A DNA stretch of 64,000 nucleotides from Enterobacter sp. JUb54 (GTDB lineage Bacteria > Pseudomonadota > Gammaproteobacteria > Enterobacterales > Enterobacteriaceae), in the NCBI RefSeq assembly GCF_014298075.1, contig NZ_CP060418.1, forward strand, positions 186,001-250,000. The letters run 5' to 3'. Below are positions 39,295 through 41,876 of this stretch, one piece after another. The notes under the pieces are model-generated. The model saw only the letters and a list, made by a program, of their open reading frames with translations. It did not search any database and was not told the DNA's origin. The position numbers and the translations under genes are program-made. Positions within the stretch are counted from its first letter, which is position 1. Each line of letters starts with the position of its first letter.

Positions 39295-39322
39295 TCTCCC
39301 GGTGAGGTCGCTCGCCGGGAGA
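39295..39322. repeat. Hairpin after hisP
   Basis: TCTCCCGG / CCGGGAGA with inner GAG/CTC pairing, at the junction with the convergent acetyltransferase. No T-run follows. Confidence 0.55.
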
Positions 39323-39325
39323 GTC

Positions 39326-39823
39326 TCAACGTTCCCGCCGGTACACCCAGTCGTCGTAATCAACCCCGTTCAGGTGGTAGGCATTTTCCAGCACCTGAAT
39401 CCGCGTAAAACCATGTTTTTCCAGCAGCCGCGCTGAGCCGATATTGTCCCCGAGAACCCACGCATTGATGGCGTTAACGCCGAGCTGCTGAAATCCGTAT
39501 TCGCATATTGCCTGTAGCGCTTCGCTGGCATACCCCTGGCCCTGGGCCTCCGGCAGCAGGGCATAGCCGACATCCGCTTCGTGCGGGTTTTTGCTGCTGA
39601 TGCGCAGACCGATATCGCCAATAGCCTGATGATGGCGAGCGCGCAGGACAAATACTCCGGGGTCGGCGCAGCGGGCCGTAAACAGGTTACGTAGCGCGGC
39701 TTCATCAAGAAGCTCGCCCATAAACTGCATCACTTCAGGGTCGCGACGCAGGCGCAGGAAAAAGGGCCAGTCCGCTTCGGTAAACGGGGAAAGCAGCAGA
39801 CGCGGAGTGGATAATGTCATCAT
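39326..39823 (-). CDS. GNAT-family N-acetyltransferase (RimJ/RimL-like)
   Basis: A 165-residue acetyltransferase. It has TPRLLLSPFTEADWPFFLRL at the N-terminus, as in RimJ/RimL-type proteins, an acetyl-CoA loop LLPEAQGQGYASEALQAICE, and NIGSARLLEKHGF near the C-terminus. The acceptor is unknown; candidates are protein N-termini, amino acids or antibiotics. Two ATGs are adjacent (39823, 39820) and the ribosome site is poor. It lies convergent to hisP, next to the small HTH unit, in a spot where E. coli K-12 carries a different gene (yfcI). Confidence 0.8.
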   Translation of the reverse strand: MMTLSTPRLLLSPFTEADWPFFLRLRRDPEVMQFMGELLDEAALRNLFTARCADPGVFVLRARHHQAIGDIGLRISSKNPHEADVGYALLPEAQGQGYASEALQAICEYGFQQLGVNAINAWVLGDNIGSARLLEKHGFTRIQVLENAYHLNGVDYDDWVYRRER

Positions 39824-39909
39824 AAGCGGGCCATTTCGCTGGAACGTCCGCTCACCTTACCACCAGAAAGTCATGGATAACATGATCTTATACCGGTGCT
39901 TGCGGCGGA

Positions 39910-40476
39910 TTACCCCGCAGCTGGCGAGGTCGTTAGCGGTTTGTCTATCTGGTGAAAATAGTGCAACACGGTGTCGCTTTGACGAGAGGAGCGCAGCTGC
40001 AGCGCCAGATTCAGGCTGTCGAGGACCTCGGCCTGTTCGACCATCGGCGAATCTGCGGCCACTCTGGCTTCGGCAACCAGCCAGCTCACAATGGTTTTCC
40101 AGCGCCACAGCGGCGAATTGCCGGTGATGCGCTGTACCGGGCCGGGGAATTTGCCGGAGCCTCGCGCGCCGTCTTTTAGCAGGGCCACGGCCTGGCGTGA
40201 AAGGCCGGTGAGTTCGGCGATGTCGCTTAGCCCCACCAGCGTAGCGTCAACGGATTCAACCCGGATGTTCAGCGCTGATGCGGATTCGATGTTATCGATC
40301 GCTGACAGAATCGCTTGTTCAAGGGAATCGCTTTCGCGATCGAATTCCAGATACACCGCGGTGCCATAAAAACAGACCAGCGCATCAGTACAGCCTGCGC
40401 GATGCAGTGCGTCCTCAAGGCCTGGCGTATGGCTGTTAACGCCTGACAGGGTTAGCGTAAAGTTGTAGAGGGCCAT
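39910..40476 (-). CDS. Helix-turn-helix protein, possible antitoxin/repressor of the adjacent HicA-like protein
   Basis: A 188-residue protein I recognise only as a type. An N-terminal alpha/beta domain (MALYNFTLTLSGVNSHTPGL; LVCFYGTAVYLEFDRESDSL) is followed near residues 82-106 by an AlpA/MerR-like helix-turn-helix (GLSDIAELTGLSRQAVALLK), then a basic wing-like segment (GSGKFPGPVQRITGNSPLWR) and a helical tail. It starts 38 bases after a small basic ORF on the same strand, with AAGGAT upstream. The pair and an upstream palindrome look like an autoregulated toxin-antitoxin unit, but function is inference. Alternative: an ordinary small-molecule-independent regulator. Confidence 0.7.
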   Translation of the reverse strand: MALYNFTLTLSGVNSHTPGLEDALHRAGCTDALVCFYGTAVYLEFDRESDSLEQAILSAIDNIESASALNIRVESVDATLVGLSDIAELTGLSRQAVALLKDGARGSGKFPGPVQRITGNSPLWRWKTIVSWLVAEARVAADSPMVEQAEVLDSLNLALQLRSSRQSDTVLHYFHQIDKPLTTSPAAG

Positions 40477-40514
40477 TATTTGCGATCCTTATCGTTAAAC
40501 CGGGGCGCCGACGC

Positions 40515-40736
40515 TCAGCGGCAGCGGTCGACCATCCTGATGATTTGCCTGGCATGATGCTCGGGAACGGCAGGGGTAGACCAGATGCTCATCATGTGTT
40601 CGCGATGACCAGCCGTACCGCACCTGAGTCGTCCAAAGCAGTGTGCGCTCTTGCCGCCAGCAATAAAAATCCATCCCCGTGCGCGTGCATAGTCAATTGC
40701 TGCTCTGATGTGTTTATCCGGATGTTCCTTCATCAT
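40515..40736 (-). CDS. Small HicA-like basic protein, possible toxin
   Basis: A 73-residue basic protein (72 if the second ATG at 40733 is used, which is better spaced from AGGA at 40741-40744). The layout is an amphipathic helix (HIRAAIDYARARGWIFIAGG), a glycine/serine turn with a conserved His (KSAHCFGRL), a strand (SIWSTP), then a helix with histidines (EHHARQIIRMVDRC). This order, with a His in a beta-strand after a GG/S turn, recalls the dsRBD-like HicA mRNA interferase fold. I do not recognise a named family. It precedes the HTH gene by 38 bases on the same strand. Unproven as a gene, but the palindrome and ribosome site support it. Confidence 0.6.
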   Translation of the reverse strand: MMKEHPDKHIRAAIDYARARGWIFIAGGKSAHCFGRLRCGTAGHREHMMSIWSTPAVPEHHARQIIRMVDRCR

Positions 40737-40760
40737 CGAGTCCTGAGAGAGTGAATGATT

Positions 40761-40778
40761 TGTTGACGGATGTCAACA
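40761..40778 (-). promoter_or_regulatory. Palindrome in the promoter of the HicA-like/HTH pair
   Basis: TGTTGACGGATGTCAACA: perfect 7-base arms around GGAT, 25 bases before the small gene. Read on the minus strand it contains TTGACA, and AATAAT directly abuts it, so a bound repressor would cover the promoter. A likely autoregulatory operator. Confidence 0.6.
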
Positions 40779-40982
40779 TTATTTTGGTGAAAAAACAGAC
40801 GCCAGGACGTTATGACAGAGAACGGCAAAAGAAGCTGGAATGCGCTTCACAGGAGAAAAGGGCGCAGCAGCAGGAGATGAGAGCGTTGCGAGACGGCTTC
40901 CACAGGCGGGTTTGCCAGGGCGATAAGGCGAGTGGGAAGAGCCAGGAGATAGGGGATCTCCCGGCGTTAACCGGCGGGGCGT

Positions 40983-41876
40983 TTAGCCAAGGATGTCTTT
41001 TAGTGCCTCTTCCAGATCGTACCAGCGGAAGCCAAACCCAGCGGCTTCCAGCCGTTTCGGCAGCGCCCGCTGGCCGCCCAGCACCAGCACCGATGACTCT
41101 CCCATCAGCAGGCGAATCGCCGTTGCCGGCACGCGGAAGATTGCCGGGCGATTCAGCGCCTCGCCGAGCGCATGGGCGAAGCGCTCATTGCGCACCGGAT
41201 ACGGAGAAACCAGATTAAATGGCCCGCTGAGGTCGTTATCCAGCAGCCACAGAATACCGTTCACCATATCGTCGATATGGATCCACGCCATATACTGCCT
41301 GCCATTGCCGATAGGGCCGCCGAGGCCAAGCCGGAAGGCCGGCAACATTTTGGCAAGGATCCCGCCCTTCGGTGCCAGCACGACGCCGGTGCGCAGCAGG
41401 CAGACGCGGGTGCGGTCGCTCTGGGCTTCGCAGGCCAGTTGCTCCCAGCGGGCGCAGAGTTTGTGGGTGAATTCGTGGTGTGGCGGTTCCTCTTCGGTGA
41501 CGACAACTTCCCCGAGATCGCCGTAATAACCGACGGCAGAACCGCTGATCAGTACTGACGGTGGGGTATCGCTGGCGTTGAACAGGTTGACCAGTTTTTG
41601 GGTGATATCCCAGCGGCTGTGGCACAGGCGCTGTTTTTGTTCCGCCGACCAGCGTTTGTCGGCGATAGGCTCGCCCGCCAGGTTGATAACGGCATCGATA
41701 TCATTGAGGTGATGATGGCCCTCGAAGCCGCGCCACAGGGTGACGCGGGCATCCAGTCGGCCTTGCGCTTTTTCCGGGCTGCGTGTTGATACCGTTACGT
41801 GATGCCCAAGCTCCAGCAGCCGGGGGATCAGATGCCGGCCAATCAGGCCGGTACCGCCAGTAAGCAGAATCCTCAT
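40983..41876 (-). CDS. yfcH: YfcH, SDR-type NAD(P)-binding epimerase-like protein
   Basis: A 297-residue extended short-chain dehydrogenase/reductase (SDR39U1-like). The dinucleotide motif [19 protein letters not shown] is at the N-terminus, followed by [16 protein letters not shown] and SGSAVGYYG, in which the usual YxxxK catalytic pair is atypical. The C-terminal DUF1731 part ends ...[10 protein letters not shown]. The reaction is unknown. It follows folX on the same strand as in E. coli. Confidence 0.93.

Follow-up and report, generated by a model that had tools for sequence, protein, structure and literature searches.

A candidate toxin-antitoxin-like operon pairing a HicA-like small protein with a helix-turn-helix protein in Enterobacter sp. 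JUb54

We analyzed a stretch of 64,000 nucleotides from Enterobacter sp. JUb54 (contig NZ_CP060418.1, positions 186,001 to 250,000; hereafter the window, whose own numbering is used below). Two adjacent open reading frames (ORFs) in the window encode a small protein of 73 amino acids and, 38 bases further on, a helix-turn-helix (HTH) protein of 188 amino acids, and a palindrome lies upstream of the small gene. An earlier reading made from the letters without database searches (the sequence-only reading) had described a basic protein of 72-73 residues, a gap of 38 bases and an HTH protein of 188 residues, and this description was borne out; the small protein is basic, with 13 Lys/Arg, 6 Asp/Glu and 7 His. 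The palindrome, TGTTGAC-GGAT-GTCAACA, was also as described, apart from its distance to the first ATG, which is 24 bases and not 25. We propose that the unit is a two-gene toxin-antitoxin-like operon, with the HTH protein as autorepressor and the small HicA-like protein as toxin, and we put the probability of this at roughly 0.68. Sequence comparison supports the operon layout, the tight pairing of the two genes, the conservation of the operator and its covariation with the recognition helix, purifying selection, the one-sided decay of the small gene, and a fusion of the two genes.

We searched for both genes in 295 Enterobacterales genomes, 299 Pseudomonadota genomes and 20 genomes of the same genus. 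We detected the small gene in 11 of the 295 Enterobacterales genomes, directly 5' of the HTH gene in all 11, and in 17 of the 299 Pseudomonadota genomes, with the HTH gene adjacent in 17 of 17. Six genomes are common to both samples, which leaves 22 distinct genomes; in all 22 an HTH partner accompanied the small gene or what is left of it (the small gene was in pieces in genomes G264 and G532 and had an internal stop in G370). The search for the small gene in these two large samples scored only part of the first-look candidates in most genomes (19 of 62 and 18 of 63 in the JUb54 genome itself), and small genes may therefore have been missed there. Within the genus, where all candidates were scored, 14 of 20 genomes carried both genes and 6 carried neither. 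Weak HTH matches (expectation value E above 1e-6) were taken as other HTH proteins and excluded from the statement on pairing. Starting from the HTH gene, we obtained 80 genome and 26 viral loci, and the small gene or a remnant of it lay just upstream in 100 of these 106. Starting from the small gene, we obtained 47 viral loci, all with the partner downstream. The two viral sets overlap and contain near-identical copies; compared over 450 bases, the 106 HTH loci comprise 94 distinct ones. No full-length small gene without its partner was found in either genome sample, the genus or the viral loci; contig 18 of genome G576 had a weak, partial small-gene match (E 7.1e-4) without an HTH gene. The sequence-only reading had held that small-protein homologues occurring widely without the HTH gene would speak against a paired unit, and no such distribution was seen. 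Across these samples the pair stays together in one operon, as in type II toxin-antitoxin modules. Distances among the small proteins and among the HTH proteins were correlated (Mantel r 0.758, n=79, 0/1000 permutations), a correlation much of which can come from shared descent alone.

Both ORFs appear to be genuine genes that evolve under purifying selection. Between the window and its close relative L070, the proportions of nonsynonymous and synonymous differences (pN and pS) were 0.029 and 0.348 for the small gene and 0.064 and 0.383 for the HTH gene. Compared with nine relatives, the window gave a ratio of the two corresponding rates (dN/dS) of 0.04-0.08 in the small gene, where 7 of the 9 pairs could be computed, and of 0.06-0.17 in the HTH gene (9 pairs). 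Among six pairs of relatives, dN/dS of the small gene ranged from 0.08 to 0.52. The pairing, the selection and the operator described next rule out that the two ORFs are neighbours by chance.

The palindrome occurs once in the window against a mean of 0.01 in shuffled sequences. Its core, GTTGAC-N4-GTCAAC, was located 150-520 bases 5' of the HTH start in 98 of the 106 loci, and 4 further sites were located 61-147 bases 5' of HTH genes that have lost the small gene or retain a remnant of it. Across 1,080,042 bases there was no additional site of this kind; the four loci L107, L147, L148 and L149 had none. The 5.30-Mb JUb54 genome contains one site, at this locus, as well as one match to the reversed control pattern. 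A scan of viral contigs for the operator only gave at least 120 stretches, which were excluded from the counts. More distant loci were found to have GTTGTC-N4-GACAAC in the same position. Among 112 distinct HTH proteins, GTTGAC operators went with an RQxxALxK recognition helix in 87 and GTTGTC operators with RQxxRK in 12, with no cross-pairing; the remaining 13 fit neither full pairing (2 had GTTGAC with another helix and 11 had neither operator). By this comparison, the covariation of operator and helix ties the HTH protein to the operator, though part of it reflects two clades. TTGAC in the first half-site of the operator forms part of a -35 hexamer, which in 70 of 87 distinct promoters was followed by a -10 hexamer with at least 4 of 6 matches, as opposed to 30% of shuffles. 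In the window, the overlap of palindrome and promoter claimed by the sequence-only reading held for the -35 element, an exact TTGACA, and did not extend to a complete promoter, as a strict sigma-70 scan of positions 39300-41000 returned 0 promoters (1.0 expected).

We then compared the state of the two genes across the 106 loci. Both were full length in 91. The HTH gene was full length and the small gene damaged or missing in 13 (broken or a remnant in 9, not found in 4), and the HTH match was partial in 2, both from Pantoea eucrina, where the small gene was not found either. The reverse, a partial HTH gene beside a full small gene, occurred in 0 of 106. A small gene was counted as full length if one frame ran from profile position ≤3 to ≥68, so that an end that had merely diverged would be scored as broken. 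Within the genus, breaks affected 2 of 14 small genes (in G569 and G578) and 0 of 14 HTH genes. Loci L098, L133 and L170 yielded no small gene, but the operator still lay directly 5' of the HTH gene. The viral set obtained from the small gene held a single short partner, in locus L236 (3001-3900), where a protein of 84 residues has the N-terminal ferredoxin-like domain only and an HTH-like ORF of its own comes after it; no standard operator was present within 90 bases upstream. As judged from these sequences, the one-sided loss is the pattern expected if a harmful gene is lost and its antidote is retained. In Raoultella ornithinolytica the two genes were fused into one ORF of 274 amino acids (L076, 4743-5564; P0065; 239 member sequences).

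Table 1 Features of the two-gene unit in the window.
Feature	Position	Strand	Description or basis
HTH gene	39910-40476	-	188-aa ORF, putative antitoxin and autorepressor; PADLOC PDC-M06B, phrog_2620
Small gene	40515-40736	-	73-aa ORF, HicA-like, putative toxin; PADLOC PDC-M06A, phrog_5923
Intergenic gap	40477-40514	-	38 bases separating the small ORF from the HTH ORF
Operator-like palindrome TGTTGAC-N4-GTCAACA, core GTTGAC-N4-GTCAAC	40761-40778	.	Motif count against shuffles; conservation in relatives
-35-like hexamer TTGACA within the palindrome	40771-40776	-	Sequence
His32 codon, candidate catalytic histidine	40641-40643	-	Invariant; aligns with the His of HicA G-S-H
Ferredoxin-like N-terminal domain (beta-alpha-beta-beta-alpha-beta), residues 1-78 of the HTH protein	40243-40476	-	AlphaFold2 model
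Helix-turn-helix, residues 82-103, recognition helix SRQAVALLK	40168-40233	-	AlphaFold2 model, helices 83-90 and 94-102

A different explanation is a phage-type regulatory unit in which an AlpA/excisionase-like HTH regulator is accompanied by a non-toxic small accessory protein that binds nucleic acid. The HTH protein matches the PHROG family phrog_2620, labelled 'excisionase and transcriptional regulator' (E 1.2e-68), a label that also counts against a toxin-antitoxin reading. Its homologue in SSU5 bears an AlpA-like name, Pfam AlpA touches 2 of 67 family members (best E 0.12), and phage-plasmids of the SSU5 type carry the pair amid DNA-replication and recombination genes. However, the chromosomal copy sits between core genes, the small gene decays alone while the HTH gene and the operator persist, and the two genes are fused in one species. 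We consider a purely regulatory unit unlikely.

The toxin-antitoxin-like operon that we favor rests further on the likeness of the small protein to HicA. In its AlphaFold2 (AF2) model (predicted local distance difference test, pLDDT, 88.9), helices at residues 8-19 and 58-71 enclose strands at 22-26, 33-39 and 48-52, and this predicted alpha-beta-beta-beta-alpha order is that of HicA. His32 is invariant across 62 aligned relatives and falls on the His of HicA's G-S-H in the profile alignment. As in HicA, a conserved His thus follows a Gly and opens strand 2, a likeness that concerns the presence of the residue only. The family profile scored 24.0 against HicA, where the maximum of 300 column shuffles was 18.4, and a second profile scored 23.4 against a shuffle maximum of 19.0 (n=300). 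The layout seen by the sequence-only reading, a HicA-like first protein with a palindromic operator, is supported by the gene order, the AF2 element order and the conservation of the operator.

The partner appears to differ from HicB, as that reading had also proposed. In the AF2 model of the HTH protein (pLDDT 86.6) the N-terminus has a predicted beta-alpha-beta-beta-alpha-beta order, ferredoxin-like and unlike the element order of HicB, which has a partial RNase H domain. The DNA-binding HTH domain, at about residues 82-103, follows the N-terminal domain, as in HicB, and the N-terminal domain may be the part that binds the toxin. Foldseek comparison of the model with the PDB gave nothing at E ≤0.001, with no HicB among the matches listed, which does not exclude one. 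These observations bear on the possibility that the unit is an ordinary HicAB module with diverged members. In the classification of HicAB into classes 1-14 by Gerdes, class 3 in particular resembles the present unit: the small gene precedes that of the larger DNA-binding partner, and the sizes, the palindromic operator and the HTH agree (PMC10865869). None of the 14 class definitions there names a ferredoxin-like partner; classes 7 and 8, which have a large HicB, were compared by definition only (PMC10865869). The homologous pair of the phage-plasmid Cyrano, described below, has been annotated as HicA and HicB. However, the small protein of the window lies outside the Pfam HicA model (PF07927), and HicB is absent from the 15 Pfam families touched at E ≤1 by 67 relatives of the HTH protein. 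A diverged HicAB module is, in our judgment, highly improbable.

The sequence-only reading took the unit for a candidate undescribed system, which is not supported, as the pair is already known as a PADLOC candidate and by a HicA/HicB annotation in one phage. The PADLOC models PDC-M06A and PDC-M06B match the small protein (E 7.1e-19) and the HTH protein (E 7.3e-32), and the two matches are adjacent, 38 bases apart, which places the unit in the same candidate family. PDC-M06 is a candidate name only; the operator, the helix covariation, the one-sided decay and the fusion are added here. In PHROG, the small protein matches phrog_5923, of unknown function (E 4.7e-35). The pair CYRAN_51/CYRAN_50 of Cyrano is homologous (63.5% and 58.7% identity) and has the same operator. 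It was annotated as HicA toxin and putative antitoxin HicB by its authors (PMC9928086), names that come from annotation. In the text consulted, its RNA was 30 and 14 times above the prophage background in overnight LB culture, and transcription was reported with no toxicity test (PMC9928086). A HicAB-like pair, gp91/gp90 of mycobacteriophage Adephagia, differs from the present unit in its HicB-like partner of 65 residues and its antitoxin-toxin gene order. Cyrano and SSU5 (two records) were the sole phages on record with both proteins. The small protein was matched in 226 plasmid records and the HTH protein in 278.

The PADLOC match raised a further explanation, which is not fully exclusive with a toxin-antitoxin system, namely a dedicated anti-phage system whose small protein acts only upon a phage signal and is harmless alone. 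The PADLOC library is described as covering known and candidate systems, and we take PDC to stand for phage defence candidate. Models for both proteins exist there, and the pair is carried by phage-plasmids of the SSU5 type, which often bear defence genes. Against a dedicated defence role, the genes identified around the unit are a GNAT gene and hisP on one side and yfcH on the other, with PADLOC applied to the two proteins only and no defence-gene search of the window. The name PDC-M06 appeared in no paper of the literature searched, which did not include bioRxiv and included few subscription papers, and no functional study of the pair surfaced in it. An exclusively anti-phage system seems quite improbable to us.

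If the unit is a toxin-antitoxin-like operon, it could work as follows. A dimer of the HTH protein would bind the GTTGAC-N4-GTCAAC palindrome and repress the promoter that it overlaps. The small protein would be toxic, most likely as a small RNase that relies on His32. The HTH protein would keep the toxin inactive, probably through its ferredoxin-like N-terminal domain and not through a partial RNase H domain as in HicB. If the partner is lost, for instance with a phage-plasmid or when a phage disturbs its host, the toxin would be released and growth would cease.

In this reading, toxicity, RNase activity, neutralisation and DNA binding are inferred. Several results weigh against it. The HicA fold, which the sequence-only reading had proposed to check by structure, was recovered in the order of its elements and not in structural searches: Foldseek against the PDB gave nothing at E ≤0.001 for the small protein (best E 1.7), with no HicA among the best 50 rows, which does not exclude one; VIA-align Z scores for HicA entries were 4.3-4.9, tied with unrelated chains; and a search of BFVD gave 0 matches at E ≤0.001. 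HHalign probability against HicA was only 22-29%, and the Pfam model PF07927, besides missing the small protein of the window, matched 0 of 21 relatives in one set and 1 of 62, at E 0.3, in another. Strong HTH matches without a small gene were present in Enterobacterales (G139, and a fragment in G254) and in Pseudomonadota (G426, a second copy in G473 and a fragment in G528). The decay asymmetry is partly due to ascertainment, because the HTH gene was the starting point for collecting the 106 loci, which are biased toward intact HTH genes. In two close pairs of relatives dN/dS of the small gene was 0.52 and 0.32, on few synonymous changes. The best -10 hexamer in the window has just 3 of 6 matches.

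The small protein has at least 2826 relatives, from 8000 candidates scored. Of the 120 listed, those with names are hypothetical or uncharacterised, and P0253 is also called 'HicA family toxin' in UniRef. At Pfam cut-offs and in NCBIfam, neither protein of the window receives a family; NCBIfam gave only chance-level matches for the relatives of the small protein, and a sequence search of solved structures gave no convincing relative for either protein. We see an even chance that the unit represents a widespread toxin-antitoxin class apart from HicAB, with a HicA-fold RNase, an antitoxin that combines a ferredoxin-like domain with an AlpA-like HTH and co-evolves with its operator, and small proteins that number in the thousands across Pseudomonadota, cyanobacterial records and SSU5-type phage-plasmids. 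If this is true, these relatives would gain a testable function, and HicA-type toxins would have a second kind of antitoxin and a second way in which a HicA-fold toxin is neutralised. The SSU5-type phage-plasmids of E. coli, Enterobacter and Citrobacter would gain a maintenance or defence gene pair, which may decide phage-plasmid maintenance and phage competition. The pairs of operator and helix offer a testable specificity code.

The unit was placed between hisP and yfcH by the sequence-only reading, which is correct, with a GNAT gene intervening on the hisP side; this gene and then hisP lie downstream of the unit, and yfcH lies upstream. In E. coli SMS-3-5 the corresponding place is occupied by rpnB, and none of 5426 E. 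coli genomes has a place that covers 80% of the 2301-base stretch. In the stretch examined, both flanks were present in 22 of 80 genome loci, one flank in 1 and neither in 57. As 23 of the 80 loci are at yfcH/hisP and 57 are elsewhere, the unit moves as a pair. Two records are likely in error: the contig of L093 is titled Chryseobacterium and has enterobacterial yfcH/hisP flanks, and LR134127.1 (L002), labelled a 'plasmid' of Klebsiella aerogenes, resembles a piece of chromosome in carrying pta, yfc genes and hisP.

Further observations concern the individual proteins. In the close relatives L070-L073 the small ORF extends through the gap and stops at the HTH start or close before it; the small ORF of the window stops earlier (40477-40517), with likeness persisting beyond the stop and the invariant core unaffected. 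In genome G473, a second HTH-family gene (G473:C15:20588-21136) lies about 10 kb from the first, with no small gene detected. An apparent stop within the HTH match of G097 proved to be the natural end of a 167-residue protein. A weak match of the small protein to the RuBisCO small chain (E 0.017; 15.6 bits, with the cut-off at 27) is probably a chance likeness; the same family was touched by 10 of 21 relatives in one set (best E 0.0015) and 27 of 62 in another (best E 0.0013). The distant small proteins of L008, L043, L046 and L241 have an inserted C...CRCGxxC stretch where the clade of the window has His, which is perhaps a metal site. The JUb54 genome also contains a separate gene above the Pfam HicA cut-off (L187, G000:C1:4326502-4326654), and the ORF that follows it looks HicB-like by eye.
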